The notes under the pieces: model-generated | Seen by the model: the letters and a program-made list of their open reading frames with translations, nothing else | Told to the model about the DNA's origin: nothing | Databases searched by the model: none | In this document: in pieces, positions 5,108 through 57,246 of the stretch | Position numbering within the stretch: the stretch's first letter is position 1 | Layout: each line of letters begins with the position of its first letter | Program-made: the position numbers and the translations under genes | From: Xanthobacteraceae bacterium | GTDB lineage: Bacteria > Pseudomonadota > Alphaproteobacteria > Rhizobiales > Xanthobacteraceae | Length of the DNA stretch: 64,000 bases | Assembly (NCBI GenBank): GCA_004297465.1 | Contig: SCUB01000023.1 | Coordinates: 186,001-250,000, forward strand | Direction of reading: 5' to 3'

Positions 5108-5712
5108 TGCCGCATCCAGCTCTCGCGGCGCAGGAATTCGAGCAGCGGCAACAGCGGCAGGCCGAGGATGGTGAAATGGTCGCCGTCGATCGCGGCGAAC
5201 AGCTGCACGCCGAGCGCTTCGAGCTGATAGCCGCCGACGCAGCCCAGCACCGCGTCGCCCGCCTCATCGAGATAGGAGGCGATGAAGGCGTCGGACAGTT
5301 GGCGCATCGTCATGCGCGCCACCGCGACATGCGTGAACAGCACCGCGCCGTCGCGGGCAAGCGCCGCCGCCGCATGCAGTTCATGGCTTTCGCCGGCGAG
5401 CGAGCGCAATTGCGCCGCCGCCTCGTTCCGGTCGCGCGGCTTGGAGAAGCGCCGCTCGCCCAGCGCCAGCGTCTGGTCGGCGCCCAGCACCAGGCGGCCG
5501 GGCGCGCCACGGCTCACCGCCAGCGCCTTGGCGCGGGCCAGATGCGCGGCGACGTCGCCAGGCTTGTTCGCCCCGCTGTCGCGCTCGACGGCGCGCTCGT
5601 CGATGTCGGCCGGCCTCACCTCGGCCGGAATGCCGGCATTGCGCACCAGCATGAGCCGCGACGGACTCTTCGACGCCAGGATCAGCGCATCGGACGACAG
5701 CCACTGGCTCAT
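5104..5712 (-). CDS. Maf-family nucleotide pyrophosphatase
   Basis: Maf/YhdE-type enzyme that hydrolyses non-canonical or modified nucleoside triphosphates to monophosphates (house-cleaning); some members affect septum formation. The N-terminal signature ASKSPSR at residues 13-19, the [11 protein letters not shown] strand with its catalytic Asp, and the C-terminal [11 protein letters not shown] motif are all present. The start is the ATG at 5710-5712, which overlaps the stop of the upstream gene (ATGA). An open reading further upstream exists but has no family similarity. 202 residues. Confidence 0.94.
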
Positions 5713-6551
5713 TGCTCGATCCGCTGCCGCTGCCGGTCGGTCAAAAGCTTCATGATGGCGGCCGCGGTCTCCTCGATCGAACGGCGCGTCACATCGATCA
5801 GCGCCCAGTCGTATCTGGCGCACAGCCGGCGCGAGAACGTTACCTCCTCGGCCACCGCCTGGCGGTCGACATACTGGTCGTCGTTGCTGTGCGCGCCCAG
5901 CCCCAGGAGCCGGTTCTGCCGGATCTGGACGATGCGCTCGGGCGTGGCGTGCAAGCCAACCACCAGCGGCTTCCTCAGCTCGATGAGCTGCGGCGGGATC
6001 GGTATGCCCGGCACCAGCGGAATGTTGGCGGCGCGCACGCCGCGATTGGCGAGATAGATCGAGGTCGGGGTTTTCGACGTGCGCGACACCCCCACCAGCA
6101 CGACGTCGGCGTTCTCGAGATCGTCGACATGCTGGCCGTCGTCATGCAGCATGGTGTAGTTGAGCGCGTCGATCCGCTTGAAGTATTCGCTGTTGAGCGT
6201 GTGCTGGGCGCCGATGCGGTGCGTGGTCTCCTTGCCGAGATAGGACTGGAACAGCGCCAACACCGGTCCGATGATGGAAAGGCTCGGCACGTTGATTTCG
6301 CGGCACTTGGCCTCCAGGCCATCGACAAGCTCCTTGTCGAGCAGCGTGAACAGGACGATGCCGGGCGCTTCCTCGATCTCGGCCAGCACGCGCTCGAGCT
6401 GCTTCTGGCTGCGCACCAGCGGATAGACATGCTCGACCGCGTTGACGTTGGCATATTGCGCGGCCACGGCGCGCGCCACGGTGGTCAGTGTCTCGCCGGT
6501 CGAATCCGACACCAGATGCAGATGGAAGTAGCTGCCGCTTTGGGGACTCAT
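5709..6551 (-). CDS. PpsR-type kinase/pyrophosphorylase regulatory protein (DUF299)
   Basis: Bifunctional serine/threonine kinase and phosphorylase family that regulates PEP synthase or pyruvate phosphate dikinase by ADP-dependent phosphorylation. The nucleotide-binding segment [11 protein letters not shown] lies at residues 154-164, and [11 protein letters not shown] near 11-21 is the conserved N-terminal motif. 280 residues, typical. The ATG at 6549-6551 is chosen because the family starts just before this motif; a longer frame to 6587 would run into the origin region. This is the positional equivalent of the gene that flanks the Caulobacter origin opposite hemE. It is the first gene of the operon with maf, coaE and dnaQ. 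Confidence 0.93.
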
Positions 6552-6938
6552 GCCGGTAAAGCCGTGACGGGAAAAGCTGTGAATCACTGGGGAGCGAACG
6601 GGGCCGCCGCCGCCCGCCGCCCGCGGGCCGGGGACAACCCGGCATCTTGTTCACAATCCCTTCAATCTGGAATTCATCCAGGCTCGCGTGAAATGATAAA
6701 TGGCGAATGTGGATTTGTCTCTGGATTTCGCGTCGTGGAAATCGATAATAAGGCCGTCAAACGCGGCCGCCATCGCCTTCCGAAGCTCGCCGTGGAATCC
6801 GGGGATAACAGCCAGCACTGTGGACAGACTGGGGCCGGCAACGGGATGGCGGCGGCATGAGTCCTATCCACGGTCAAGGAATCACTAACCTAAGAATCAA
6901 ATAGAATTATTTAAGGACGAGCGGATGAGGACAAAGCG
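6552..6938 (+). other. Putative chromosomal replication origin (oriC)
   Basis: This 387-base non-coding stretch lies between divergent PPSR and hemE genes, the same flanks as the Caulobacter origin. Degenerate DnaA boxes (consensus TTATCCACA) are TTGTTCACA at 6647-6655, AAATCCACA (minus) at 6708-6716, TTATCCCCG (minus) at 6800-6808, CTGTCCACA (minus) at 6819-6827 and CTATCCACG at 6864-6872. Each has two mismatches. GANTC sites (CcrM methylation) occur at 6581, 6795, 6859, 6879 and 6894, plus 6545 just inside PPSR; about 1.5 would be expected by chance. An AT-rich tract at 6883-6916 could be the unwinding element. Location and pattern support an origin, but no box is perfect and I cannot compute skew. 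Confidence 0.7.
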
Positions 6939-7964
6939 ATGAGCAAGCCCGTGCTTGAGGTCCTGAACGGGCGTGCCGTCAACACGCCGCCGGTCTGGAT
7001 GATGCGGCAGGCGGGCCGCTATCTGCCGGAATACCAGGCGGTGCGGACCAGGGCCGGATCGTTTCTCGACCTGTGCTTCAATCCGGAACTTGCCGCCGAG
7101 GTCACGCTGCAGCCGATCCGGCGCTTCGGCCTCGATGCCGCGATCCTGTTCTCCGACATCCTCGTCATTCCCCACGCGCTGGGCCAGACCGTGACGTTCA
7201 GCGCCGGCGAGGGTCCGCTGCTGACGCCGCTGGCCGATCGGGCCGCGATCGAAGGCTTGCGCGGAACGGTAGACGACGCGGTGCTGGCGCCGGTCTATGA
7301 GACGATCCGCCGCGTCAAAACGGAATTGCCGCCTGCGGTGACGTTTCTGGGGTTCTGCGGCGCGCCGTGGACGGTCGCGACCTACATGATCGCCGGACGC
7401 GGCACGGCAAGCCAGGCCCCGGCCCGGCTGTTCGCCTACCGCGAGCCGGACGCCTTCGCTGCCCTGATCGACATCCTGGTGGAAAATTCGATCACTTACC
7501 TCGCGCGCCAGATCGAGGCCGGGGTCGATGCCGTGCAGCTGTTCGACACCTGGGCCGGCGTGCTGCCGCCGGAGGAATTTGCCCGCTGGTGCGTCGAGCC
7601 GACGCGCCGCATCGTCGAAGGCGTGCGCGCGCGCCATCCGGGAGCGCGGATCATCGGATTCCCGCGCGGCGCCGGCACGCAGCTTGCCGGTTTTATCGAC
7701 GCGGTGGCGGTTGACGCGGTGAGCGTCGACTGGAGCACCGACCGCGCCTTCGTGCGTCAGGCGATCCAGCCGCGCGTCGCGGTGCAGGGCAATCTCGATC
7801 CGCTGGCGCTGCTGGCGGGGGGCGCGGCGCTCGATCGCAGCGTCGCGGCGATCCTGCGCGACTTCGGCGGCGGGCGCTTCATCTTCAACCTTGGCCACGG
7901 CATTCTGCCGGAGACGCCGATCGCGCATGTCGAGCGGATGCTGGCGCGGGTGCGTGGCGGCTAG
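6939..7964 (+). CDS. hemE: Uroporphyrinogen decarboxylase
   Basis: Decarboxylates the four acetate side chains of uroporphyrinogen III to give coproporphyrinogen III in cytoplasmic heme synthesis. The signature [12 protein letters not shown] is at residues 21-32, and [13 protein letters not shown] is the second family motif. 341 residues, full length. The start ATG at 6939 is preceded by GAGGACAAAGCG. It begins immediately to the right of the putative origin and is followed by hemJ, a later enzyme of the pathway. Confidence 0.97.
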
Positions 7965-8016: not shown

Positions 8017-8439
8017 ATGTATGAGTGGCTCAAGGCGTTCCATGTCATCGCCGTGATCGCGTGGATGGCGGGCATGTTCTATCTGCCGCGCCTGTTCGTC
8101 TATCACTGCGAGGCCGAGCCGGGATCGAAGCAGTCCGAAACCTTCAAGGTGATGGAGCGGCGGCTGCTCAAGGCCATCATCAACCCGGCCATGATGGTGG
8201 TGTGGATCCTGGGATTGTGGATGGCATGGGACGGCGGCTGGTTTTCGGCGCCCTGGTTCCAGCTCAAGCTGGTTCTGGCCACCGTGATGTCCGGCCTGCA
8301 CGGCTTCCTGGTGCGCTGGGTGCGCGCCTTCGCCGCCGACGCCAATCCGCACAGCCAGAAATTTTATAGGATAATCAATGAAATACCGACGGTGCTGATG
8401 GCCGGCATCGTCATTCTCGTCATCGTAAAGCCATTTTGA
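8017..8439 (+). CDS. hemJ: HemJ-type protoporphyrinogen IX oxidase
   Basis: Integral membrane enzyme that oxidises protoporphyrinogen IX to protoporphyrin IX in bacteria lacking HemG/HemY. 140 residues with four hydrophobic spans. The N-terminal MYEWLKAFHVIAVIAWMAG carries the conserved His near residue 9, and RRLLKAIINPAM carries the conserved Lys. The ATG at 8017 is chosen because it starts this conserved block; the in-frame extension upstream overlaps hemE and is not similar to the family. It lies 52 bases after hemE, probably in one transcript. Confidence 0.94.
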   Translation: MYEWLKAFHVIAVIAWMAGMFYLPRLFVYHCEAEPGSKQSETFKVMERRLLKAIINPAMMVVWILGLWMAWDGGWFSAPWFQLKLVLATVMSGLHGFLVRWVRAFAADANPHSQKFYRIINEIPTVLMAGIVILVIVKPF

Positions 8440-8689: not shown

Positions 8690-9955
<1,266 letters not shown>

Positions 9956-13465: not shown

Positions 13466-13485
13466 TTCTGGCTTTAATGTTCAGT

Positions 13486-13501
13486 TGTTTCACGTGAAAC
13501 A
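13486..13501. other. parS centromere site 1
   Basis: Perfect 16-bp palindrome TGTTTCACGTGAAACA, identical to the widely conserved ParB binding site. It lies in the mnmE-mnmG intergenic region, 2.7 kb from parA. Confidence 0.95.
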
Positions 13502-13529
13502 AGATGCGGTGCTTTAGTACCGCATAGTG

Positions 13530-13545
13530 TGTTTCACGTGAAACA
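13530..13545. other. parS centromere site 2
   Basis: A second perfect copy of TGTTTCACGTGAAACA, 44 bp (centre to centre) from site 1, in the same intergenic region. The paired spacing suggests a strong ParB nucleation point. Confidence 0.95.
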
Positions 13546-13625
13546 TTGCGCCGCGCGGCGCTAGGATCGCGCGGCAATCCGGGGTAGAACGCCGTCGCGT
13601 TCGAGGCGCGAAAGAGGCGCGGGCG

Positions 13626-15511: not shown

Positions 15512-16258
15512 ATGACCAGAGCCGCGGCATCGAAAAGCTTCGGGTCCGGGCCGCCGGTGGCGGACGCGCTGGCGCGCGATCGCGAAGCGGCGCTGGCGCT
15601 GACCCCTGTTTCACGTGAAACAGCCACGCGGCTCGACCGCTATCTGGCCCTGCTGATGGAGTGGCAGCGCAAGACCAACCTGGTGGCGCCCTCGACGCTC
15701 GATTCCCTGTGGACGCGGCATGTCGCCGATTCGCTGCAGCTCACGCGGCTGACGCCGCAGGCCCAAATCTGGGTTGATCTCGGCAGCGGCGGCGGCTTTC
15801 CCGGCGTCGTGCTGGCCTGCGCGCTGGCGGAGACGCCGGGCGCGACGGTGCATCTCGTTGAACGCAACGCCAAGAAGGCAGCGTTCCTACGCGAGGCCGC
15901 GCGCGTGACCGGCGCGCCGGCGCTCGTGCATCGGGCGGATATCGGGGATTTCGTGGATAGTTTCGCCGGCCCGGTCGATTGCGTCACCGCGCGGGCGCTC
16001 GCACCGCTTAAGGTGCTGGCAGGCTTCATCGCCCCGCTGATCCGGCGCGGCGCCAGGGGCCTGATCCTCAAGGGTCAAGATATAGAAGCTGAATTGACCG
16101 AAGCCGCTAAATGTTGGAAAATTCAGGCCGTGCGCCATCCCAGTCTGACTGACGCCGACGCCTGCATCCTTGAAATCCTGCAACTTGAGGCGATCGCGGC
16201 GCAGTCCTCAAATCAGGCCGGCAGAACCGCCGCCGAATCGGGCCATGACAGAAAATAA
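15512..16258 (+). CDS. rsmG: 16S rRNA (guanine527-N7)-methyltransferase RsmG (GidB)
   Basis: Methylates G527 of 16S rRNA using S-adenosylmethionine. The SAM-binding motif VDLGSGGGFPG is at residues 88-98. 248 residues. The ATG at 15512 is preceded by GAGGAAACG; an earlier in-frame codon overlaps mnmG. The coding sequence contains a perfect parS site that encodes residues 33-37 (VSRET) in a poorly conserved N-terminal segment. Its 3' end overlaps the parA start by 14 bases. Confidence 0.95.
   Translation: MTRAAASKSFGSGPPVADALARDREAALALTPVSRETATRLDRYLALLMEWQRKTNLVAPSTLDSLWTRHVADSLQLTRLTPQAQIWVDLGSGGGFPGVVLACALAETPGATVHLVERNAKKAAFLREAARVTGAPALVHRADIGDFVDSFAGPVDCVTARALAPLKVLAGFIAPLIRRGARGLILKGQDIEAELTEAAKCWKIQAVRHPSLTDADACILEILQLEAIAAQSSNQAGRTAAESGHDRK
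15607..15622. other. parS centromere site 3, inside rsmG
   Basis: Third perfect TGTTTCACGTGAAACA, lying inside the rsmG reading frame. A 16-bp palindrome surviving in coding DNA at this distance from parA (about 0.6 kb) indicates selection for ParB binding. Confidence 0.93.
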
Positions 16259-17102
16259 CGATATATATCAACAAGATACTCAAGGCGGCCCAAGTCCCGC
16301 GATGATTCCGCGGGTGCTGGCGCTGGCCAACCAGAAGGGCGGCGTCGGCAAGACCACCACCGCCATCAATCTTGGCACGGCGCTGGCCGCCATCGGCGAG
16401 CGCGTGCTGATCGTCGACCTCGATCCGCAGGGCAATGCCTCGACCGGGCTCGGCATCGACCGCCGTAACCGCGACTGCTCGACCTATGACGTGCTGATCG
16501 GCGAGGCCTCGCTGCGCGCCGCGATCCTGCCGACCGCGGTGCCGCGCCTGCACATCGCCGCTTCCACCATGGATCTGTCCGGCCTCGAACTCGAACTCGG
16601 CCAGGCCCGCGACCGCGCCTTCCGGCTGCGCGACGCGCTGCGCGCGCTCAACGCCGGCCGCGCCGGGGAATCCGACTACACCTATGTGCTGATCGACTGC
16701 CCGCCGTCGCTCAACCTTCTGACCGTCAACGCCATGGCCGCCTCCGACGCCATCCTGGTGCCGCTGCAGTGTGAGTTTTTCGCGCTCGAAGGCCTCTCGC
16801 AGCTGCTTTCCACCGTCGAGCAGGTGCGCTCGACGCTCAACCCGAACCTGACCATCCACGGCATCGTGCTGACCATGTTCGACGCCCGCAACAACCTGTC
16901 GAGCCAGGTGGTCGCCGACGTGCGCCAGTTCATGGGCAGCAAGGTCTACGACACCATGATCCCGCGCAACGTGCGCGTCTCGGAAGCGCCGTCCTACGGC
17001 AAGCCGGTGCTGGTGTACGATCTCAAATGCGTCGGCAGCGAAGCCTATCTCAAGCTGGCGACCGAGGTGATCCAGCGCGAGCGCGATCTGCGCGCGCAGT
17101 AG
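16245..17102 (+). CDS. parA: Chromosome-partitioning ATPase ParA
   Basis: Deviant Walker-type ATPase that moves ParB-parS complexes along the nucleoid. The deviant Walker A KGGVGKTTTA is at residues 31-40, followed by VDLDPQGNASTGLG and the Walker B strand YVLIDCPPS. 285 residues. The ATG at 16245 overlaps the end of rsmG, and no better start is available. The 20 residues before the Walker strand are polar and typical of chromosomal ParA. Forms an operon with parB (67-base gap). Confidence 0.97.
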   Translation: MTENNDIYQQDTQGGPSPAMIPRVLALANQKGGVGKTTTAINLGTALAAIGERVLIVDLDPQGNASTGLGIDRRNRDCSTYDVLIGEASLRAAILPTAVPRLHIAASTMDLSGLELELGQARDRAFRLRDALRALNAGRAGESDYTYVLIDCPPSLNLLTVNAMAASDAILVPLQCEFFALEGLSQLLSTVEQVRSTLNPNLTIHGIVLTMFDARNNLSSQVVADVRQFMGSKVYDTMIPRNVRVSEAPSYGKPVLVYDLKCVGSEAYLKLATEVIQRERDLRAQ

Positions 17103-17169
17103 TAACAGTAGAGGCGTGGGGATAGTGATGAGCAGCGACGGCGCGGCAATGCGCGCAAGGGAGACGACA

Positions 17170-18054
17170 ATGGCGGACGAAGCGCGTTCACGGCTCGGCC
17201 GTGGACTGGCGAGCCTGATCGGCGATGTCGGCGGCGAATCCGCCAAGGCGGAGCGTCCACGCGGCGCGCGCCGGGTGCCGATCGAATTCCTGCGCGCCAA
17301 TCCGCGCAATCCGCGCCGGGCTTTCGCCGAGGCTGAGCTCGACGAGCTGACCTCGTCGATTCGCGAGCGCGGCGTGATCCAGCCCATCGTGGTGCGGCCG
17401 GTGCGCGGCGCGCCCGATGCGTTCGAGATCATCGCCGGCGAACGGCGCTGGCGCGCGGCGCAGCGCGCCGGCCTGCACGAGGTGCCGATCGTGCCGCTCG
17501 ACGTCGGCGACACCGAGGCGCTCGAGATCGCTATCATCGAGAACGTGCAGCGCGCCGATCTCAATGCGCTGGAAGAGGCGCGCGGCTATCACGCGCTCGC
17601 CGACGACTTCAGGCGCAGCCAGGAAGACATCGCGCGCATCGTCGGCAAGAGCCGCAGCCATGTCGCCAACATGATGCGGCTGACCCGGCTGCCGGAAGCA
17701 GTGCAGGCGCTGATCGCGTCCGGCGAACTCAGTGCCGGTCACGCCCGCGCGCTGCTCAGCCTGGCCGATCCCGAGGCGGCGGCGAAAAAGATCGTCGCGC
17801 AGGGCTTGAGCGTGCGTCAGGCCGAGGAGCTGGCGCACGAGGCCGGCGTGCCGCAGCGGCCACAGGTCAAGCCGCGCGGCGGCAAGACCAAGGACGCCGA
17901 CACCGTGGCGCTGGAGCGCCGGCTGTCCGATGCGCTCGGCATGAGCGTGAGCATCGACGACCGCGACGGCCGCGGCGCGGTGAGCATCCGCTACCGCGAC
18001 CTCGAACAGCTCGACGCCATCATCCGGCGCCTCGAAGCAAACAAGACCAGCTAG
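17170..18054 (+). CDS. parB: Chromosome-partitioning protein ParB
   Basis: CTPase/DNA-binding clamp that loads at parS and spreads. It has an N-terminal ParA-interaction segment (RLGRGLASLIGD), the CTP-binding GERRWRA motif at residues 90-96, ENVQRADLNALEEARGY, a helix-turn-helix (about 160-182, SRSHVANMMRL) that reads parS, and a C-terminal dimerisation domain. 294 residues. The start at 17170 is chosen for the AAGGGAG Shine-Dalgarno sequence; earlier in-frame starts add non-conserved residues. Three cognate parS sites lie 1.5-3.7 kb upstream. Confidence 0.97.
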   Translation: MADEARSRLGRGLASLIGDVGGESAKAERPRGARRVPIEFLRANPRNPRRAFAEAELDELTSSIRERGVIQPIVVRPVRGAPDAFEIIAGERRWRAAQRAGLHEVPIVPLDVGDTEALEIAIIENVQRADLNALEEARGYHALADDFRRSQEDIARIVGKSRSHVANMMRLTRLPEAVQALIASGELSAGHARALLSLADPEAAAKKIVAQGLSVRQAEELAHEAGVPQRPQVKPRGGKTKDADTVALERRLSDALGMSVSIDDRDGRGAVSIRYRDLEQLDAIIRRLEANKTS

Positions 18055-28763: not shown

Positions 28764-29216
28764 ATGTCGATCCATGACGACCTTGCCGCGCTGGAGCGCG
28801 TCGCGCTGTTGCGGCTGCTCGGCCGCGAGGCGCTGCGCATGCTGGCGGTCGGCTCGGAGACGCAGCGCGTGCATCGCGGCGATACGCTGTTCCGCGAAGG
28901 CGACGCCGCCGATTGCGGCTACGCGGTGCGCGACGGCGCGCTGCGGCTGACCGACGCGCAGGGCGGCGAGCGCCGCGCCGGGCCCGGCGCGCTGATCGGC
29001 GAGACCGCGCTGATCATCGAGGTGCCGCGCGACGCCACCGCCCTCGCCGAGGAAACCTCGACGGTGATACGCATCAGCCGCAGCCTGTTCCAGAAGGTGC
29101 TGGAGAGCGACGCCGAGGCGGCGGTGCGGCTGCGCGAGGCCTTCGCCGCGCGCACCACGCAGATAACCGCCGAGATCGCGGCGGTCAGGGCGCGGCTAAC
29201 ACAGCACAAAGATTAA
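28764..29216 (+). CDS. Cyclic-nucleotide-binding domain protein without DNA-binding domain
   Basis: 150 residues consisting of a single Crp/cAMP-binding beta-barrel: LLRLLGREALRMLAVGS, a beta-roll with GDTLFREGDAAD, and the phosphate-binding-cassette region GALIGETALIIEVPRDATA. The classical RxxxxxR phosphate-binding arginine is replaced by PRDATALAEE, close to the family pattern. It lacks the C-terminal helix-turn-helix of Crp/Fnr regulators, so it is not a transcription factor by itself. GAGGG precedes the ATG. It follows the response regulator and probably acts with it, though how is unknown. The AT-rich island begins at its stop codon. Confidence 0.85.
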   Translation: MSIHDDLAALERVALLRLLGREALRMLAVGSETQRVHRGDTLFREGDAADCGYAVRDGALRLTDAQGGERRAGPGALIGETALIIEVPRDATALAEETSTVIRISRSLFQKVLESDAEAAVRLREAFAARTTQITAEIAAVRARLTQHKD

Positions 29217-29232
29217 TTCCTAGGGCGACAGC

Positions 29233-29892
29233 ATGTCTCGTCTGTTCATATTTGCCGACGAAGCTGGGTGTTTTAATTTCAGCAGAGCCCAAGGTGCCAG
29301 TCGATACTACATAGTTTGTACTATTTCGTCGGATTCTTGCCACGCACTCGCTGCTGATCTGATCCAACTTCGTAGAGAGCTTATTTGGGATAAGGCCCCC
29401 ATAGGGGAGTATTTCCATTGTTCAGAAGACAAACAACAAATACGAAATAGGGTGTTCGAGTTACTTCAAAATCATAATTTTTCTGTTCAGGCTACAATTA
29501 TGGAGAAATCAAAAGCCCTTCCTCATATCAGATCAAGCAATCATGGTTTTTACCAATATGGTTGGTTTTATCATTTCAAATATGCAGCACCAAAAATAAT
29601 AGGACGAGCTGCCGAACTGCAAATTACAACAGCCTCAGTTGGTACTCGCAGAGGACAAACCCATTTTACGTCAGCAGTGAATGACGTGATTCAGCAAGTA
29701 GTCAGAAATAAAAAGTGGGCAACCAATTTTTGTAGATCAATTGCAGACCCGTGCTTGCAAGCGGCTGATTACTGTACTTGGGCCATACAGAAAAAATGGG
29801 AATCAAACGACACTCGGTCGTACGATCTAATAAAAAATAAAATTGTCCATGAAGTGGACATGTGGGCGCACGGCACTACCCATCATTATTAG
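29233..29892 (+). CDS. DUF3800 domain protein on an AT-rich island
   Basis: 219-residue protein of the DUF3800 family. N-terminal FADEAG (D9, E10) matches the family's leading DESG-type motif, YFHCSEDKQQIR is a central motif, and the C-terminal LQAADYCTWAI (D179) matches the terminal ADxxA motif. I recall the fold as RNase H-like, with these acidic residues as candidate metal ligands; nuclease activity is inference. The gene is strikingly AT-rich (30-47% GC in 60-base lines I counted, against roughly two thirds or more in neighbours) and uses AT-ending codons, so it is almost surely horizontally acquired. It sits between convergent, vertically inherited genes. The function is not known. Confidence 0.85.
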   Translation: MSRLFIFADEAGCFNFSRAQGASRYYIVCTISSDSCHALAADLIQLRRELIWDKAPIGEYFHCSEDKQQIRNRVFELLQNHNFSVQATIMEKSKALPHIRSSNHGFYQYGWFYHFKYAAPKIIGRAAELQITTASVGTRRGQTHFTSAVNDVIQQVVRNKKWATNFCRSIADPCLQAADYCTWAIQKKWESNDTRSYDLIKNKIVHEVDMWAHGTTHHY

Positions 29893-29901
29893 AATAGTAC
29901 A

Positions 29902-29966
29902 CGACCCGACTTCCAAGCTATCCGGTAGGAAGTACCCGAGGGCGCTTGTCGCAAGGAGCCGGGTCG
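29902..29966 (+). ncRNA. Foldable RNA-like segment downstream of the DUF3800 gene
   Basis: A compact GC-rich block within the AT-rich island. A perfect 7-bp outer stem pairs 29902-29908 (CGACCCG) with 29960-29966 (CGGGTCG). Inside it, ACTTCC (29909-29914) pairs with GGAAGT (29928-29933), and CTTG (29945-29948) pairs with CAAG (29952-29955). Together these form a three-way-junction shape starting ten bases after the stop codon. The 3' strand CGGGT can also pair with a nearer ACCCG (29934-29938), giving an alternative fold. It may be part of the mRNA 3' end, an independent RNA or a recombination site. I do not recognise a known family. Confidence 0.35.
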
Positions 29967-30022
29967 CGGAGTTATTCCAGAAATGACAATGCTAAAATAA
30001 CACCGAGCAATGTGCATGTGAA

Positions 30023-35937: not shown

Positions 35938-35975
35938 GAAAAATGAAGGGCCCCGGCATTTATACCGGAGCCCTT
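35938..35975 (-). terminator. Intrinsic terminator after the first amtB
   Basis: Inverted repeat AAGGGCCCCGG / CCGGAGCCCTT (35946-35975) with an 8-base loop and one mismatch. On the minus strand it is followed by CATTTTTCAG. It ends the glnK-amtB transcript. Confidence 0.7.
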
Positions 35976-36057
35976 CGACGGCGGGGCGTTTGCCGGGGGT
36001 TGCCCCGACCGCTGGCACGGAACGGGAGGCTTTGCGTCCCGTGCCGCTCCTGTCGCC

Positions 36058-44840: not shown

Positions 44841-45209
44841 CTAGACCAGCGCCAGCTTGCGATCGATGGCGAGCAGCACCCGGTCAAGCTCGTGGCCGCG
44901 GCGCAGGATCAGTCCGCCGGCCGTGATCACGCTGTAAACGCCCTGCCGGCGCGCCAGGCGGGGCGCCTTCTCGATGCGGTAGATCGGCATGTCCGAGGCG
45001 CGGCGGAACACGGAAAACACCGCGCGGTCCCTGAGAAAGTCGATGGCGTAGTCGCACCATTCGCCGGCCGCGACCATGCGGCCATAGAGGTCGAGAATGC
45101 GGTCGAGTTCCCGCCGGTCGAAGGTGACCTGGTGTGGAGCGGACGAGCCATGGCCCTGTTCCGCTCCGGTCAACTCGCCCGGCTCGGTTTCGCCGGACAT
45201 CGTGCTCAT
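44841..45209 (-). CDS. DUF2794 domain protein
   Basis: 122-residue protein of the alphaproteobacterial DUF2794 family; no function is known. A disordered N-terminus (to about 28) is followed by the conserved block VTFDRRELDRILDLYGRMVAAGEW, quoted as FDRRELDRILDLYGRMV, then YRIEKAPRLARRQG and HELDRVLLAID. AGGAGG lies 6 bases before the ATG at 45207-45209, so the start is secure. It has no signal peptide or membrane span and is probably cytoplasmic. Confidence 0.9.
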   Translation of the reverse strand: MSTMSGETEPGELTGAEQGHGSSAPHQVTFDRRELDRILDLYGRMVAAGEWCDYAIDFLRDRAVFSVFRRASDMPIYRIEKAPRLARRQGVYSVITAGGLILRRGHELDRVLLAIDRKLALV

Positions 45210-45422
45210 GCGGCGCCTCCTGTCGGATGCTTGTTCCCATGATCCTCCCAGTCGGGCCGACCCGCAAGGGCCGACAGCGATTCATGCGCAGCCGCGAGAG
45301 GCCGCCCGGCACGCCTGGGGGCCTTGCGCCGGTCCTCACGCCAACGTTAACGGATTCATAATACCGCCAAAATTCGGCCCCGCGCCCGCCCCGCTGCATT
45401 GCGATCTAACCCGAACTGCGAT

Positions 45423-45570
45423 GGCTCGGTTCTGCCGTGCCGGATTCCTCAGCCCCCAGCCCCCTGGCGCGCGCGGGAACCGAGCCTGATCGCCGACGTC
45501 CCCAGGCTACCGCAACAAGCCTGCCGCAATCCCCCCATCACTTGCGGGCCAGCCGTGCTGGCCCGCTTTG
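45423..45570 (+). ncRNA. Candidate small RNA with intrinsic terminator
   Basis: In a 443-base gap with no gene, three helices lie in series on the plus strand. A 10-bp stem GGCTCGGTTC (45423-45432) pairs perfectly with GAACCGAGCC (45477-45486) and encloses a small hairpin CCAG-CCCC-CTGG. A second hairpin CAGGC (45503-45507) pairs with GCCTG (45519-45523). A C-rich single-stranded stretch CCCCCCAT follows, then a perfect terminator hairpin (45544-45566). This layout is that of a trans-acting small RNA with an anti-Shine-Dalgarno-like region. The 5' end and promoter are not clear (a CATAAT at 45356-45361 is one option). I do not recognise its family. Confidence 0.5.
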
Positions 45571-45573
45571 CAT
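45544..45573 (+). terminator. Intrinsic terminator of the candidate small RNA
   Basis: Perfect 10-bp stem GCGGGCCAGC / GCTGGCCCGC with a CGT loop (45544-45566), followed by TTTGCATT. There is no plus-strand protein gene upstream for it to terminate. Confidence 0.75.
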
Positions 45574-45652
45574 TCCAGGCCTTCGGCGCACGAGAATCCG
45601 CCGTCCCAATGCGAGGGCGGGCTGCGGAAAACCAACCGTGCTGGATAAAAGC

Positions 45653-46483
45653 CTAATTCAGCTCGACATAGGCGGCACCGAGCATCGGACCCGGCGCATC
45701 AAGGCTGCCGCGCTGGATAAAGACGACGGCGGCATCGACGCCCTCGCTCCGGATGCTTTCCAGCGGCACGTCCCAGTTCGCCGTCGCGCCGTTCCAGTTG
45801 TCGATCTTGTGCCAGCGCCGCACCACATTGTGGTAGACCACCTGGCGGTCGCGGTTCTCGCCGCGCCCGATGCTGACCGCGATCTGGCGGGTCAGCGCGC
45901 AGATCCAGACCTCGCTGGCGGAGGCAGCCTTGGCTTGGCCGACCGCGACCTTGAGGCGGTCCTTGGCCAGCGACAGCGTCACCGGGACGGCGTCGTCACC
46001 AAGACGCGCCTCGCCGATCGCTTTCTCGATCCTGGCGCGATCGTTGCCGACCACCTGGACGCGGCCGTTGACGATCATCTGCGGCGTATAGACATCGCGG
46101 TCGCCGCGCGCGCGCGAATAGGCGCGCTGCCGCGCGGTAAAGCGCGGACTGGCCAGCGTGTCCTTCCAGCCGAGATAATCCCAGTAATCAACCGGCAGGC
46201 TCAGGGCGACGATCGACGGGTCGGCGGCGAGATCGCCCAGCAGACGGTCGGCCGGCGGGCATGACGAGCAGCCCTGGCTGGTGAACAGCTCGACCACCGT
46301 GCGCGTCGGAAGCCCGGCATGCGCCGGTTCGGCCCGCGCCGATGCCGGCGCGAACAGCCCGGCCACCATGAGGCCGAGCAGCATCATCGTCGTGATCCTG
46401 GCGCCGAATTTCGCGGCTGTGGCCGTGATCCTGGTCATCGTGCCGGTCGCCGCCGGCACCGCAGAGTCTGCCGATTCATGCAT
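45653..46483 (-). CDS. DUF1223 secreted thioredoxin-like protein
   Basis: 276 residues. N-terminal signal peptide (TTMMLLGLMVAGLFAPASARA) and a DUF1223 domain with VELFTSQGCSSCPPADRLL, shown here as LFTSQGCSSCPP (C72, C75), a thioredoxin-like CxxC site. The family is common in Proteobacteria and its function is unknown; the fold suggests a periplasmic thiol-disulphide role. The start could be the ATG at 46481-46483 or the one at 46436-46438 (MTRITATAA), since neither has a well-spaced Shine-Dalgarno sequence. Confidence 0.88.
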   Translation of the reverse strand: MHESADSAVPAATGTMTRITATAAKFGARITTMMLLGLMVAGLFAPASARAEPAHAGLPTRTVVELFTSQGCSSCPPADRLLGDLAADPSIVALSLPVDYWDYLGWKDTLASPRFTARQRAYSRARGDRDVYTPQMIVNGRVQVVGNDRARIEKAIGEARLGDDAVPVTLSLAKDRLKVAVGQAKAASASEVWICALTRQIAVSIGRGENRDRQVVYHNVVRRWHKIDNWNGATANWDVPLESIRSEGVDAAVVFIQRGSLDAPGPMLGAAYVELN

Positions 46484-46696
46484 CCTCGATCACCCACCCC
46501 AGTGCATCATTTTAAAAGGCAACGTTTTTAAATTGAACTGCTTGTAAAGCGCATCTGGCCGTTTCGTGCAGGACAGTCCGGAAACAAACGTTTCTTGTCT
46601 TCCCGCATCACACGCAACACACGCATTACGCGCACATGAAAACTGAAAGCGCCGGCTTCAACCCGTGATGCATCAGCACCAACATGCCTTGCGCAA

Positions 46697-46727
46697 ACAA
46701 AAAGGCGGCCCTTGATAGGCCGCCTTT
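46697..46727 (-). terminator. Intrinsic terminator of acnA
   Basis: AAAGGCGGCC-CTTGATA-GGCCGCCTTT (46701-46727), 10-bp perfect stem. On the minus strand it is followed by TTGTTTGCGC, giving a run of five T residues. It lies 41 bases after the acnA stop. The remaining gap to 46484 is less GC-rich, with ACGC-type low-complexity sequence, and no gene. Confidence 0.9.
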
Positions 46728-46767
46728 CCATCACCTGCCACTCACTTCACGGTGAGGTCGGTTGTGA

Positions 46768-49488
<2,721 letters not shown>

Positions 49489-49711
49489 GATCAGGAATCC
49501 CCCTTGATCGGTTCAGGAGATCGACCGTCAAGATCAGGACCGGGGAGCGGCTCTTGGGAACGCGACAGAAATGGCGGTATTTAAACACTGCCAGCCCTGA
49601 TCGCGGGGCGCGACCTCCAATGTCCTGCAAGCGGCGCGGCCGATGCTGGATGGGGTGGCTTATAAGAAATTTTTTTATGCGCCGCCATACCAACAATGGT
49701 CTTTCGGAGTG

Positions 49712-49735
49712 CATGCCGGTGAACTTTACGGCATG
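49712..49735. promoter_or_regulatory. Inverted repeat between acnA and ccmA
   Basis: CATGCCG-N10-CGGCATG, perfect 7-bp arms, about 40 bases upstream of ccmA and 220 upstream of acnA. Its spacing fits an operator for a dimeric regulator. The rest of the 288-base divergent gap holds an AT-rich tract (49660-49680), probably promoter DNA. Confidence 0.35.
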
Positions 49736-49776
49736 ACAGGCCGATGGGTTGGCACCATGACCGCGACGGGATGGCG

Positions 49777-50403
49777 ATGCGGCTGACGGCAACGGGGCTG
49801 GTTTGCGTGCGCGGCGGGCGCGAGGTGTTCTCGGGCCTCGACCTTGCGGTTTGCGGCGGCGAGGCGCTGGCGATTACCGGGCGCAACGGCGCCGGCAAGT
49901 CGTCGCTGCTGCGCCTGTTGGCCGGGCTGATCCCGCGCGCCGGCGGCAGCCTAGAACTGAGCGGCGGCGACGGCGAACTGACGCTACCCGAGCAGGCGCA
50001 CTATCTCGGCCACCACGACGCCCTCAAGCCGGCGCTCTCCGTGATCGAGAACCTCCTGTTCTGGCACGACTTTCTCGGCGGCGACGGCGCCGACCCGCAG
50101 CAGGCCCTGGCCGCTGTCGAGATCGACCATATCGCGGGCCTGCCGGCCGGCTACCTGTCCGCCGGGCAGCGCCGGCGGCTGTCGATCGCCCGCCTTCTCA
50201 CGGTGCGGCGGCCGGTCTGGCTGCTCGACGAGCCGACCTCGGCGCTCGATACCGCCGCGCAGGCGACGCTCGCCGGCCTGATGACCGGCCATCTCGCCGC
50301 CGGCGGCCTGATTCTCGCCGCCACCCATGGGCCCCTCGGCCTGGCCGCGCCGCGCCGCCTGCATATCGGACCGCCGCTCGCAATTTCGACGGAGCCGGCA
50401 TGA
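49777..50403 (+). CDS. ccmA: Heme-exporter ATPase CcmA
   Basis: ATP-binding subunit of the CcmAB(CD) complex, which releases holo-CcmE during cytochrome c maturation. About 208 residues: Walker A GRNGAGKS at 35-42, ABC signature [13 protein letters not shown] and Walker [13 protein letters not shown]. The start is uncertain among in-frame ATGs at 49744, 49771 and 49777; the last fits family length and has GGGATGG upstream. Its stop overlaps the ccmB start (ATGA). The operon is ccmABCDG; ccmE, ccmF and ccmH are not in this window. Confidence 0.93.
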
Positions 50404-51068
50404 CCGCGCTCGCCGCCCTGATCCAGCGTGAACTGCGCATCGCCCTGCGGGTCGGCGGCGGCGCGCTGATCGGCGTGCTGTTCTTTCTCACCGTGGTGGT
50501 GCTGATGCCGTTCGCGATCGGCCCGGACCTGGCGCTCTTGAAGCGCATCGGCCCGGCGATCCTGTGGCTCGGCGCCATGCTGGCGAGCTTGCTCACCCTC
50601 GACCGCCTGTTCACCGCCGATCACGACGACGGTTCGCTCGACATCATCGCCATGAGCCGGATGCCGCTGGAGATCACCTGCGCCGCCAAGGCGTTCGCCC
50701 ACTGGCTCGCCTCCGGCCTGCCGTTGATCGTGGCGACCCCGATCCTCGGCCTGATGCTCAACCTCGACCCCGCCGCCACCACCGCGGTGGCGCTGACCTT
50801 GCTGATCGGCACCCCGGCGCTGACCTTCACCGGCATGATCGGCGCGGCGCTGGCGGTGACGCTGCGGCGCGGCGGCCTGCTCTTGTCGGTGCTGGTGCTG
50901 CCGCTCTCGATCCCGATCCTGATCTTCGGCGTCGCGGCCTCCAACGCCGCGGTGGTCGGGCCGACGCCGTTCGGCACGCCGTTCACCATCCTGGCCGCGC
51001 TGACGCTGACGAGCCTGGTGGTCGGCCCGTTCGCCGCCGCCGCCAGCCTGCGCCAGGGGCTGGACTGA
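50400..51068 (+). CDS. ccmB: Heme-exporter membrane protein CcmB
   Basis: Integral membrane partner of CcmA, 222 residues with six predicted spans. Conserved features are [11 protein letters not shown] at the N-terminus, [18 protein letters not shown] and the [11 protein letters not shown] loop. It works in the inner membrane in CcmE release. ATGA overlap with ccmA. Confidence 0.94.
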
Positions 51069-51141
51069 CCTTCCAAAAAACAAAGTTCTGCTTGATCCTG
51101 CTCAATTGCCGCGCAACCCGGGCCCCGGTATCACCTCCGCC

Positions 51142-51879
51142 ATGACGCTGACCGAACTCGCCAATCCGACCCGGTTCCTCGCGCTGGTGGCGCGTCTGAT
51201 GCCGTGGCTGACGGCCGCGACAGCGCTGCTGCTCATCGCCGGCCTCTATCAGACCTTCGCGGTGGCGCCCGACGACTACCAGCAGGGCGCCACGGTCAAG
51301 ATCATGTTTCTCCACGTGCCGTTCGCCTGGCTCGCCATGTTCGGCTGGGCCATCATGAGCATCTCGGCGCTGGGCACGCTGGTGTGGCGCCATCCGCTCG
51401 CCGACGTCTCGGCCAAGGCGGCGGCACCGATCGGCGCCGCGTTCACCTTCCTGTGCCTGGTCACCGGCGCGCTGTGGGGCCGCCCGATGTGGGGCACCTA
51501 TTGGGAATGGGACGCGCGGCTGACCTCGGTGCTGATCCTGTTCCTGATGTATCTCGGCGTCATGGCGCTGTGGCGCGCGGTCGAGGATCCGTCGCGCGCG
51601 GCGCGCGCGGCGGCGGTGTTCACGCTGGTCGGCGCCATCAACCTGCCGATCATCAAGTTCTCGGTCGACTGGTGGAACACGCTGCACCAGCCGGCCTCGG
51701 TGCTGCGCCTCGGCGGGCCGACCATCCACATGAGCATCCTGGCGCCGCTCATGGTGATGGCGCTGGCGTTCTCGCTGATGTTCGTGACGCTGCATCTGGC
51801 CGCCATGCGCAACGAGATCCTGCGCCGCCGCATCCGCACCCTGCATCTGATGCAGGCCGCCGCGCCACGCGCGGGTTGA
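51142..51879 (+). CDS. ccmC: Heme-handling membrane protein CcmC
   Basis: Six-span membrane protein that attaches heme to CcmE. 245 residues. The periplasmic tryptophan-rich WWD-type motif appears as [13 protein letters not shown], and the two heme-ligand histidines are in FLHVPFAW and TLHQPASV. The start ATG at 51142 lies 73 bases after ccmB and has no clear Shine-Dalgarno sequence; a TTG 12 codons earlier is open. Confidence 0.95.
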
Positions 51880-51892
51880 GGAGAGAAGCGCC

Positions 51893-52096
51893 ATGAACCT
51901 TGGCCAGCATGCCGGCTTCATCGTCGCCGCCTATGGCGTGGCGGTTATCGTCGTGACCGCGCTGATCGGCTGGATCGCCGCCGACTACCGCCGCCAGACC
52001 CGCACGCTGCGCCGGCTTGAGGCCAGCGGCATCACCCGCCGTTCGGCCGCCATCGCGCCGGCCGCCGGCACCGCGCCAAGCAGGGCCGCGCCGTGA
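51893..52096 (+). CDS. ccmD: Heme-exporter protein CcmD
   Basis: 67-residue small membrane protein with one span ([22 protein letters not shown], here [15 protein letters not shown]) and a basic cytoplasmic tail ([13 protein letters not shown]). It is needed to release holo-CcmE from the CcmABC complex. Preceded by GAGGAGAGAAGCGCC. Its stop overlaps the ccmG GTG start. Confidence 0.92.
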
Positions 52097-52686
52097 GCGG
52101 GGCCGAGGCATCCGCGCCGGAAGCACGGCGGCGGTGGCTCGCGCTGATCCCGCTGGCGCTGTTCGCGGCGCTGGCGGCGCTGTTCTTCTTCCGCCTCGGC
52201 AGCGGCGACACCACCAGGATTCCTTCGGCGCTGATCGGCCGTCCGGCGCCCGACACCGCGCTGCCGCCGCTCGCAGGCCTGATGCGCGACGGCGTCGCGA
52301 CGCCCGGCCTCGATGCCGCGACGCTCAAGGACCGCGTCAGCGTCGTCAACGTGTGGGCGTCGTGGTGCGTGCCGTGCCACGACGAGGCGCCGCTGCTGGT
52401 GGAGATGGCCAAGGACCCCCGCTTCCAGATCGTCGGCATCAACTACAAGGACACCGCCGACAACGCGCGCCGCTTCCTCGGCCGCTACGGCAATCCATTC
52501 GCCGCCGTCGGCGTCGACGCCAATGGCCGCGCCTCGATCGAGTGGGGCGTCTACGGCGTGCCGGAGACCTTCATTGTCGGCCGCGACGGCCGCATCGCGT
52601 TCAAGCTGGTCGGGCCGATCACCCCGGACAACCTCCAGCCGGTCCTGATGCGCGAGATCGACAAGGCGCTGGCCGCGGCCCCCTGA
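52093..52686 (+). CDS. ccmG: Thiol:disulfide interchange protein CcmG/DsbE
   Basis: Membrane-anchored periplasmic thioredoxin that reduces apocytochrome c or CcmH for heme ligation. 197 residues: one N-terminal anchor ([17 protein letters not shown]), then a thioredoxin domain with WCVPC (C92, C95) and [12 protein letters not shown] holding the cis-Pro region. GTG start at 52093 overlapping the ccmD stop. Last gene of ccmABCDG. Confidence 0.94.
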
Positions 52687-52750
52687 CAATCACGAAAAGT
52701 TTTTGGACGTTTATCCGCCGTTCATGCGCCGGCCATTTCGCCGCCACGAA

Positions 52751-52786
52751 CTGTAGTACAGTCGGGCCGCTGCAATTGAGCAGCGG
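52751..52786 (+). repeat. Two adjacent palindromes between ccmG and the helix-hairpin-helix gene
   Basis: CTGTAGTACAG (52751-52761, perfect 5-bp arms) followed by CCGCTGC-AATTGA-GCAGCGG (52767-52786, 7-bp arms). The second could form a hairpin ending the ccm transcript, but there is no immediate T tract (GGGACAGGCGTTTT follows). Confidence 0.4.
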
Positions 52787-52875
52787 GGACAGGCGTTTTC
52801 CCTATTTTGATCCGCATGCGGCGAAAACCCATGCACGCCCACCCCGATCGACCGTCCTGAGGAGGGACAACCCCC

Positions 52876-53250
52876 ATGCGTCACGTCACGCTTGCCACCC
52901 TGACCGCCATCGGCCTGTTGTTCGCAGTGCCGGCGATGGCGCAGACGACCCAGCCCGCGCCCGCCACCAAGATGGCGCCCATGGCCCCGCCCAAGGCGGA
53001 TTCGAAAATGGCGCCGATGGCGCCCAAGGATTCGAAGATGGCTCCCGCCAAGCAGGAGCTGCTCGACATCAACTCGGCCAGCGCCGCCGACCTCGAGGCC
53101 CTGCCGGGCATCGGCAAGGTACGCGCCGAGGCGATCATCAAGGGCCGCCCCTACAAGGGCAAGGATGAGCTGGTCGAAAAGAAGATCGTGCCCGATGGCG
53201 TCTACAAGGGCATCAAGGACAAGATCATCGCCAAGCAGCAGAAGTCGTAA
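52876..53250 (+). CDS. Secreted helix-hairpin-helix (ComEA-like) protein with KMAP repeats
   Basis: 124 residues. A clear signal peptide (TLATLTAIGLLFAVPAMA, cleavage before QTT) is followed by a low-complexity linker of K-M-A-P-M-A-P-type repeats (about 30-58). A helix-hairpin-helix domain follows (DINSASAADLEALPGIGKVRAEAII, quoted as NSASAADLEALPGIGKVRA) that binds DNA without sequence preference. ComEA-type proteins bind incoming DNA in the periplasm during transformation; whether this one does is unknown. GAGGAGG lies before the ATG. It stands alone. Confidence 0.85.
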   Translation: MRHVTLATLTAIGLLFAVPAMAQTTQPAPATKMAPMAPPKADSKMAPMAPKDSKMAPAKQELLDINSASAADLEALPGIGKVRAEAIIKGRPYKGKDELVEKKIVPDGVYKGIKDKIIAKQQKS

Positions 53251-53324
53251 GGACTCGCGTGAAGGCATCCCATCAAGCAGCGCGCCGGGCTTATTTTCCG
53301 GCGCGCCTGTCTTCCCTCGCCTGT

Positions 53325-53615
53325 CATGGCCGGGCCTGATCTCTCCGTCGTCATTGCCGGGCAACCGGGTTTCGCCAGCGGCGAGCCCGGCTGTAAACTT
53401 GACCCGGCAATCCAGCTCGCGAAACCGCAACGTCGCGGAGAAGCCCCATGGATGCGCGGGTCAAGCCCGCGCAAGACGAGGATGCATGGCGCGGGTCATG
53501 CTCGGGCCTGACAAGGAGGAGGGCCTCTCATTTCGTCACCACCGGGCTTGACCCGGTGGTCCATCGTCGAAGAACAGAATGGATTGCCGGGTCGAGCCCG
53601 GCAATGACGAGGAGG
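53325..53615. repeat. Cluster of dispersed palindromic repeats
   Basis: Several units of the GTCATTGCCGGG...TTGACCCGGCAATCC / GGGTCAAGCCCG...GACGAGGA type lie in tandem with sequence decay, filling most of the 388-base gap between the helix-hairpin-helix gene and yciB. The same family occurs at 18132, 20255 and 59929. No gene is seen here. Confidence 0.75.
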
Positions 53616-53638
53616 GGATTGCGCAGCAGTCTACTAGT

Positions 53639-54208
53639 CTAGGCGCCGCCGTCCGCCGGCTTCTCGTGACGCCTGAGCAGCGGATACTGCGCGGCGCCGA
53701 ACAGCATGGTCAGCGGCAGCGCGCCGAACGCCTTGAACGCCACCCAGACATCGGTGGTCTGGGTGCGCCAGACGATCTCGTTGAGCACCGCCATGGCGAA
53801 GAAGAACAGCGCCCAGCGCAGCGTGAGCTGCCGCCAGCCCGCCGCGGTGAGGCTGAACACCTGGTCGAACACATGCGCGATCAGCGAGCGCCCGAATAGA
53901 AGCCCGCCCGCCAGCACCGCGCCGAACAGCGTGTAGATGATGGTCGGCTTCATCTTGATGAAGGTGTCGTCGTGCAGCGCCAGCGTCAGCGTGCCGAACA
54001 CCAGGACGACGACGGCGGAGACGATCGCCATCACCGGCAAATGCCGGGTCAGCGCGTAGGAAACCGCCAGCGCCACGACGATGGCGACCATGAACGCGCC
54101 CGTCGCGACGAAGATATTGAATTTCGCGTTGGCGGCGAAGAATACCACCAGCGGCCCCAGTTCGGTCGCGAGCCTGAACAGCGGATGCGGCGCGGCTTTC
54201 TCACCCAT
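53639..54208 (-). CDS. yciB: Inner-membrane septation protein A (YciB/IspZ)
   Basis: 189 residues with five or six hydrophobic segments. [15 protein letters not shown] at the N-terminus, [13 protein letters not shown] and LNEIVWR are the family hallmarks. It is needed for normal envelope integrity or septation in some bacteria; the biochemical role is unknown. It follows ftsY by 6 bases on the same strand, an arrangement conserved in Hyphomicrobiales. Confidence 0.93.
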
Positions 54209-54214
54209 CGCGCG

Positions 54215-55168
54215 TCACGCCTCGTCGTCGAGGCCGGCGATGGCGCGGGCGAAATCGCGCGCCGCGAATGGCGCCAGATCGTCGATTCCCTCGCCGACGC
54301 CGATGAAATGCACCGGCAGGCCGAACTTCGCCGCGATCGCGACCAGGATGCCGCCGCGCGCGGTGCCGTCGAGCTTGGTCATGGCAAGCCCGGTGACGCC
54401 CGCGGTTTTGCGGAACGCCTCGACCTGGGCCAGCGCGTTCTGCCCCACGGTGGCGTCGAGCACCAGGAGCACGGCGTGCGGCGCGCTGGCGTCGACCTTG
54501 CGGATGACGCGCGTCACCTTCTCCAGCTCGCCCATCAGCTCGGCCTTGTTCTGCAGCCGCCCGGCGGTGTCGATCAGGAGCACGTCGGTGCCCGCCTCCT
54601 TCGCCGCGGCCAGCGCGTCGAACGCCAGGCCCGCGGCGTCGGCGCCGTGCTCGCGCGCCACCACGGGCGCGTGCGTGCGCGCGCCCCAGATCTTCAATTG
54701 CTCGATGGCGGCGGCGCGGAAGGTGTCGCCGGCCGCCAGCATCACGGCGCGGCCCTCGGCGCGGAACTTCGCGGAAAGCTTGCCGATGGTGGTGGTCTTG
54801 CCGGAGCCGTTGACGCCGACCACGAGGATGACGAACGGCTTGCGGCCCGCGTCGATCGCGAGCGGCGCGGCGACCGGCGCCAGCGCGGTCTCGACCTCGG
54901 CGGCGACCACCGCCTTGACCTCGTCGGCGGAGATCGCCTTGTCGTAGCGGCCCCGCGCCACCGCGGCGGCGATGCGGGCGGCGACATCGACGCCGAGGTC
55001 GGCGCGCAAGAGCACCTCCTCGATGTCCTCGACCATCGCGCCGTCGAGCTTGCGCTTGGTGACGAGATCGGCCACCGCGCCGCCGAGCGAGGCCGAGGTG
55101 CGCCTGAGGCCGGCGGAAAGCCGCCGCCACCAGCCCTGCTTGCCCTGAGTCTGCGTACTGTCGTTCAT
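54215..55168 (-). CDS. ftsY: Signal recognition particle receptor FtsY
   Basis: SRP-GTPase receptor that targets membrane proteins to the translocon. 317 residues: a short basic N-terminus (no long acidic A domain), a helical N domain to about 105, and a G domain with Walker A GVNGSGKTTT at 118-127, DTAGRLQNK near 200 and TKLDGTARGG near 262. The ATG at 55166-55168 is right; the frame is open further upstream only because it lies opposite another gene. Ffh, its partner, lies 5 kb away on the other strand. Confidence 0.96.
   Translation of the reverse strand: MNDSTQTQGKQGWWRRLSAGLRRTSASLGGAVADLVTKRKLDGAMVEDIEEVLLRADLGVDVAARIAAAVARGRYDKAISADEVKAVVAAEVETALAPVAAPLAIDAGRKPFVILVVGVNGSGKTTTIGKLSAKFRAEGRAVMLAAGDTFRAAAIEQLKIWGARTHAPVVAREHGADAAGLAFDALAAAKEAGTDVLLIDTAGRLQNKAELMGELEKVTRVIRKVDASAPHAVLLVLDATVGQNALAQVEAFRKTAGVTGLAMTKLDGTARGGILVAIAAKFGLPVHFIGVGEGIDDLAPFAARDFARAIAGLDDEA

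Positions 55169-55993: not shown

Positions 55994-57246
<1,253 letters not shown>

Follow-up and report, generated by a model that had tools for sequence, protein, structure and literature searches.

The chromosomal origin of Caulobacter crescentus, Cori, is bordered by hemE and a COG1806 gene, contains an AT-rich region of about 40 bp together with weak DnaA boxes (moderate G-boxes and very weak W-boxes), and has parS within 8 kb (PMC1914354, PMC4468827). Several GANTC sites are also present in Cori (PMC3973325). In the rearranged origins of Wolbachia, Ehrlichia and Anaplasma, one of the usual border genes near the origin has been replaced (PMC1914354). For ten Bradyrhizobiaceae genomes, a rule published with Ori-Finder places the origin beside gidA and takes TGTTTCACG as the DnaA box, a choice made because the predicted origins adjoined gidA and held TGTTTCACGTGAAACA (PMC2275245). 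This rule was reused for Oligotropha carboxidovorans, whose genome paper reports four tgtttcacg boxes in the putative origin (PMC3091675).

The locus described here lies in a stretch of 64,000 nt from a Xanthobacteraceae bacterium (the window, to which positions refer unless contig coordinates are given). It resembles Cori in its hemE and COG1806 flanks, its AT-rich region, its weak DnaA boxes, its nearby parS and its several GANTC sites, as judged by a comparison of features. Cori has five CtrA sites, whereas the interval described here has no TTAA-N7-TTAA though ctrA is encoded, and the single IHF consensus scanned, WATCAANNNNTTR, has zero matches on either strand of 6501-7000 with no mismatches allowed. 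The Bradyrhizobium-type relatives of the window resemble Wolbachia, Ehrlichia and Anaplasma in that one usual border gene has been replaced near the origin. They differ in which gene was affected: in those genera hemE is kept and COG1806 is replaced, whereas the Bradyrhizobium-type clade keeps PPSR (COG1806) and hemE is gone.

We conclude that 6552-6938 is very probably the DnaA-dependent chromosomal oriC, of the known alphaproteobacterial PPSR/hemE type. This assignment draws on the cluster of DnaA-like boxes, a unique conserved core, the PPSR/hemE context, parS and parAB nearby, and, in the best of five segment models, a skew break about 3 kb away. As an origin it is ordinary; the interest lies in the relatives, with a displaced marker gene, a predicted origin that appears to fall on parS, and one box at which regulatory sites of two types occur.

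Gene neighbourhood of the origin interval

The genome is a 27-contig draft of 3.12 Mb, and the window lies on contig C7 (373,877 bp), where the interval occupies 192.55-192.94 kb. PPSR (PRK05339.1, 347.5 bits) and hemE (TIGR01464, 404.9 bits) border the interval, and hemE is followed by hemJ (UPF0093), rho, mnmE, mnmG and parAB (Table 1). Beside parAB are three copies of the parS palindrome TGTTTCACGTGAAACA; they lie 6.6-8.7 kb from the core, and the draft has no others even with two mismatches allowed. The genome also encodes a full-length DnaA with the segment GGRDHTTVLHA, which presumably has a role in reading the DnaA box.

Much of a preliminary description made from the letters alone is borne out by these data. 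It had placed an origin between PPSR and hemE, with parS about 7 kb away, by analogy with Caulobacter; both flanking genes are now identified, they correspond to the hemE and COG1806 flanks of Cori (PMC1914354, PMC4468827), and the three parS sites are exact. The AT-rich tract reported at 6883-6916 is indeed present, as are six GANTC sites in 6545-6898 (at 6545, 6581, 6795, 6859, 6879 and 6894), the first of them inside PPSR and outside 6552-6938. The description had also reported five 9-mers within two mismatches of TTATCCACA; the cluster stands and the count does not, there being seven in 6552-6938.

Table 1. Features of the very probable origin and its surroundings, with positions in the window.
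Feature	Position	Strand	Remarks
PPSR gene (PEP synthase regulatory protein, COG1806/DUF299)	5712..6551	-	PRK05339.1
oriC interval (very probable), PPSR start codon to hemE start codon	6552..6938		densest DnaA-like window of C7; position kept in relatives
DnaA-like box TGATTCACA	6578..6586	-	overlapped by GANTC 6581..6585
GANTC	6581..6585		overlaps box 6578-6586
DnaA-like box TTGTTCACA	6647..6655	+	TTCACA at or near the same place in 9/11 aligned sister-clade rows
DnaA-like box AAATCCACA	6708..6716	-	inside block TGTGGATTTGTC, present in 5/11 aligned sister-clade rows
GANTC	6795..6799
DnaA-like box TTATCCCCG	6800..6808	-
DnaA-like box CTGTCCACA	6819..6827	-
Conserved origin core CATGAGTCCTATCCACGGTCAAG	6856..6878	+	23 bp; PWM 23.9
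GANTC (GAGTC)	6859..6863		in core; directly abuts box 6864-6872
DnaA-like box CTATCCACG	6864..6872	+	two mismatches to TTATCCACA; core centre, adjoins AT-rich tract
AT-rich tract, probable DNA unwinding element	6874..6916		AT-richest 40-mer begins 6874
GANTC (GAATC)	6879..6883		in AT-rich tract
GANTC (GAATC)	6894..6898		in AT-rich tract
DnaA-like box TTGTCCTCA	6926..6934	-	past AT-rich tract; may be chance
hemE	6939..7964	+	TIGR01464
hemJ (UPF0093)	8017..8439	+	adjoins interval in Bradyrhizobium-type clade
rho	8690..9955	+
parS TGTTTCACGTGAAACA	13486..13501		exact 16-mer
parS	13530..13545		exact 16-mer
parS	15607..15622		exact 16-mer
parA	16245..17102	+	AAA_31, 200.6 bits
parB	17116..18054	+	ParB_N, HTH_ParB, ParB_C

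A cluster of weak DnaA-like boxes beside an AT-rich tract

The seven DnaA-like 9-mers of the interval (two on the plus strand, five on the minus) all have exactly two mismatches to TTATCCACA, none being better. A two-mismatch scan of the whole of C7 identifies 6552-6938 as its densest 387-bp window, with seven boxes against four in the runner-up and a mean of 0.34. Similarly, dinucleotide shuffles of the interval hold 0.72 such 9-mers on average, and none of 2000 reaches seven. Exact TTATNCACA occurs at seven sites genome-wide, none of them on C7.

AT content is 74% over 34 nt from 6883 and 79% from 6880. Within the interval, stability is lowest in the 40 bp at 6875-6914. As low a level is seen at 0.012% of contig positions, and a 40-mer at 12107 is slightly less stable still. 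The basal unwinding system (BUS), a DnaA box with DnaA-trios, requires three or more 3'-NAN-5' trios no farther than 16 bp from a DnaA box. The window is like the BUS in that a DnaA-like box adjoins the probable unwinding tract, and unlike it in that, by eye and unscored, the box at 6864-6872 has no 3'-NAN-5' run on the required strand and side. A run of three can be read by eye beside the weak box at 6926-6934 and is probably due to chance.

This arrangement suggests how the origin could work. DnaA would bind the cluster of weak boxes cooperatively, with the box at 6864-6872 anchoring an assembly that extends into the AT-rich tract at 6874-6916. The assembly would open the tract, the helicase would load there, and replication forks would depart bidirectionally from the interval. 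ParB bound to the three parS sites would then segregate the newly copied origins.

A conserved core at the same place in relatives

Around the box nearest to the tract lies a core, a 20-base pattern of which is unique genome-wide at up to three mismatches. Alignment and a position weight matrix (PWM) search across 123 PPSR-side intervals give the consensus nnTGAGTCnAATCCACnGnCAAA with a GANTC-bearing AT-rich tract after it, and place the core at the same PPSR-side position in most of the relatives examined. The 123 intervals comprise the window, 18 hemE-adjacent relatives, 24 of 26 further PPSR loci and 80 loci that are the best 80 of 589; three were excluded, namely L023 (cut by the contig start), L049 (no upstream sequence) and L057 (a weak, distant match). 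For the 24 further loci a fixed 480 nt was taken, counted from the aligned start of PPSR, and several therefore extend into hemE; other intervals may include a few PPSR codons. Counts over the 123 loci are non-independent trials, since the loci are related and some come from near-identical organisms (e.g. L005/L155, L035/L141 and L047/L173).

A non-circular PWM was trained on 50 relatives that have hemE next to the interval, leaving out the window and all loci without hemE. Its top site on both strands of C7 is at 6856 (23.9; the next site scores 12.8). It also reaches at least 10 in 25 of 34 origins without hemE, compared with 2.9% of shuffled intervals. The nine lower-scoring origins are L032, L033, L037, L135, L136, L140, L145, L199 and L203. 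The exact family-wide pattern GAGTCNNATCNACNGNCA was found in 23 of 198 genomes (24 sites, against four for a reversed-pattern control), which is too strict as a measure of conservation, and the PWM was therefore used.

GANTC and CtrA-type sites

Six GANTC sites in 6545-6898 compare with a contig mean of 0.56 per 354 bp. Two other C7 windows, at 217.7 kb and at 351.8 kb (overlapping rpmA/rplU), also have six, and the five sites inside 6552-6938 are a weak excess when taken alone, as 92 of 2000 shuffles reach five. The excess is weak on the window sequence by itself and carries weight only through the relatives. Within the 123 related PPSR-side intervals, the AT-richest 60 nt, chosen without the PWM, holds at least one GANTC in 109, with a total of 210 sites, where 200 rounds of shuffling gave 41.3 on average and never more than 58; density is 28.5 per kb there and 7.2 in the remainder. 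Of the 81 loci whose core score is 10 or more, 46 have a GANTC abutting the box, a count that is biased upwards because the selecting PWM includes those columns.

GcrA is encoded on contig C15, and one RAMA-domain protein, encoded on contig C1, is taken as a putative CcrM. The preliminary description had coupled oriC with control by CcrM methylation. The oriC part is retained, and the CcrM part is kept as a mere possibility. CcrM is reported to be unnecessary for the control of initiation in Caulobacter, though its overproduction leads to extra chromosome copies there (PMC3973325). Overproduction had no significant effect on ori1, the DnaA-type origin of A. tumefaciens (PMC11514494), and a review describes once-per-cycle replication in Caulobacter as seemingly controlled by CcrM (PMC6090056). 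The origin at 6552-6938 may possibly be under such control.

Pairs of the form TTAA-N6..8-TTAA are absent from 6301-7000, the sole TTAA of the interval being at 6911; the preliminary description had likewise seen no clear CtrA half-site pair (TTAA-N7-TTAA), and none occurs in the sister clade either. The ctrA gene is on contig C2, and its product, a close relative of CtrA, is 84% identical to the Caulobacter CtrA sequence used as query. Elsewhere among the relatives such sites do occur: TTAA-N7-TTAA is found in 34 of the 123 intervals against a shuffled mean of 0.55, and a spacing of 7 alone stands out, spacings of 3-6 and 8-14 occurring in 0 to 6 loci. The window and 32 loci without hemE, which fall together within one starred 60-row group on the PPSR tree, have none, and the two loci without hemE that do have the pair (L199 and L203) fall outside this group. 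The CtrA-type site TTAATCAACCGTTAA covers the core DnaA-like box in L030, L044, L047, L048 and L173, and a CtrA-type site covers the AT-rich tract in L013, L022 and L029.

These patterns lead us to a tentative and rather doubtful proposal, that in Hyphomicrobiales origins regulation is concentrated on the DnaA box next to the unwinding tract. GANTC sites abutting the box and within the tract would make opening CcrM-dependent, hemimethylated origins being less ready to fire, and in other lineages a CtrA-type site (TTAATCAACCGTTAA, TTAAGAATCTCTTAA) would lie over the same box or tract; the window lineage and the Bradyrhizobium-type clade would have the GANTC form alone.

Probable displacement of hemE in the Bradyrhizobium-type clade

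In the best 80 of 589 confirmed PPSR loci, the next gene across the interval was sought as hemE, hemJ or rho; it is hemE in 55, hemJ in 24 and none of these in one. All but two of the hemJ-next loci (22) are records of Bradyrhizobium, Rhodopseudomonas, Tardiphaga or uncultured organisms and belong to one clade; L199 and L203 are distant. Ten further family members with hemE elsewhere retain a similar interval beside PPSR.

The PPSR tree has 122 rows and was made by a quick method with SH-aLRT support only. It places the window as sister (99) to a 30-row Bradyrhizobium-type clade, all without hemE at this place. The label of hemE adjacency (L045 and L185 unlabelled; L044 scored as adjacent because its record begins inside hemE) needs five changes on the tree, three of them forced by starred branches. 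From the outer relatives, we infer that hemE left the origin in the Bradyrhizobium-type clade and was not gained elsewhere. The window genome, sister on this tree and still with hemE at its origin, thus shows how the marker gene could drop out.

We further note that where hemE lies away from PPSR it is preceded by GTGTATCAG, perhaps a promoter element, in eight of ten loci (L007, L010, L011, L015, L018, L019, L020 and L026), with a variant in L003 and none in L006.

GC skew and a possible inversion

The preliminary description had expected the GC-skew minimum at this site. On C7 the cumulative minimum is at 327,010, which does not agree with this expectation, and the best-fitting segmented model does break close by. 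With only one break allowed, the model sets it at 116 kb. When one to five segments are compared, the BIC is best for four (2557.8, against 2558.9 for five); the boundaries then fall at 196, 231 and 327 kb, and G minus C per base averages -0.013, +0.020, -0.013 and +0.013 in the successive segments. The 196-kb break is about 3 kb from the interval, and the 231-327 kb block is reversed.

Comparison with the closed 4.59-Mb genome G027 bears on this block. Matches to the G027 stretches compared were found for 64 of 310 called C7 genes, and those at 186-229 kb are mostly in one orientation. For five genes at 299-309 kb the match is to G027 659-680 kb and the orientation is reversed; they and C7 227-229 kb match neighbouring places in G027 in opposite orientations. 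This reversed gene order leads us to suspect that the 231-327 kb block (window 45000-64000 and beyond) is perhaps an inversion.

In G027 itself, the best single break of the 583-983 kb region is at 786-787 kb and the core is at 784.25 kb. The fit is almost equally good for a break at 810-818 kb, and cumulative skew over this region is lowest near 820 kb, some 36 kb from the core, a distance that lowered our confidence in the oriC assignment very slightly; farther along the genome, another change in the sampled skew falls between 3.0 and 3.2 Mb. In the closed 8.0-Mb genome G024, with PPSR at 956 kb and hemE at 7.09 Mb, the sampled skew passes from negative at 900-920 kb to slightly positive at 960-980 kb, a turn around PPSR and not hemE in a noisy series of 20 samples with further sign changes.

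Alternative placements of the origin

The published rule for the Bradyrhizobiaceae (PMC2275245), with its reuse for Oligotropha carboxidovorans (PMC3091675), would put the origin in the mnmE-mnmG (gidA) gap at 13466-13625, only 6.6 kb away and so inseparable from the PPSR side by skew. It concerns the same neighbourhood, mnmE-mnmG with parS, and sets oriC on the gidA-side parS palindrome, whereas the evidence here favours the PPSR side. Its DnaA box, TGTTTCACG, is half of the parS palindrome, and such halves are present in the window as parS; the gap has zero TTATCCACA-like 9-mers and zero GANTC. We compared the two sides in the best 80 of 589 loci. Of these, 71 offered 3 kb or more of available sequence, and 27 yielded a parS-like site with no more than two mismatches; the PPSR interval was set against a stretch of the same length with the first parS-like site at its middle. 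The PPSR interval is richer in DnaA-like 9-mers in all 17 hemJ-next loci with a parS-like site (means 5.2 vs 0.6), where it is also more AT-rich on average, and in nine of ten hemE-next loci (5.5 vs 1.5); in L178, L179 and L213 the first parS-like site falls inside the PPSR interval itself. A wholly different DnaA box is unlikely in these relatives, given that GGRDHTTVLHA is present in nine of ten DnaA loci, the tenth being cut short. For the window we therefore regard a gidA-side origin as very improbable. The comparison indicates that the published MISPLACEMENT, that is, the predicted Bradyrhizobiaceae origin and its "species-specific DnaA box" TGTTTCACG, describe parS, and it is more likely that the Bradyrhizobium-type origin lies between PPSR and hemJ, some kilobases from the published site. 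This gives origin work in Bradyrhizobium and Rhodopseudomonas a specific place, PPSR-hemJ, to address; our searches of the open literature brought up no paper correcting the Ori-Finder placement.

An origin near 327 kb, where the cumulative skew of C7 is lowest, is very unlikely: that place is outside the 12 densest box windows of the contig, has no parS, and is one of the change points bounding a block that may be inverted, while the runner-up place for boxes and GANTC combined (351.8 kb) overlaps ribosomal-protein genes. Least credible of all is an origin beside dnaA at C7 57.4 kb. Such origins are common in other phyla, and there is a weak core-like match (10.0) at C7 57398, but this site too falls outside the 12 densest box windows, has no parS, is 135 kb away, and shows no skew break in models of up to five segments. 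The core could also be read as merely the promoter of hemE/hemJ (or PPSR), with GANTC sites that serve GcrA. In keeping with this, it lies about 80-100 nt upstream of hemE in most hemE-adjacent loci, two weak promoter-like matches occur on the minus strand, and GcrA prefers promoters with methylated GANTC (PMC8116508). The core, however, remains beside PPSR where hemE is absent and hemJ follows at a different distance, and it is single-copy and accompanied by a cluster of DnaA boxes, so that we give this reading very little credence; a promoter and the origin may share this DNA. The interval between PPSR and hemE thus remains our preferred origin.

Other features of the window and contig

The weak core-PWM match at C7 57398 lies just before dnaA (57453) and could be a DnaA autoregulation site or due to chance. 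An ORF at 29233-29892 with a DUF3800 match lies where GC content drops to 49% (29001-30000), the only clear dip in the window, and is perhaps a recent insertion. An Rfam scan of the entire window gave four matches (tRNA, ffh, BjrC174 and BjrC68), none near the origin: BjrC68 is at 35938-36020 (minus strand), BjrC174 at 45335-45509 (plus) and ffh at 59866-59917 (plus). The BjrC68 and BjrC174 families are named after the Bradyrhizobiaceae.
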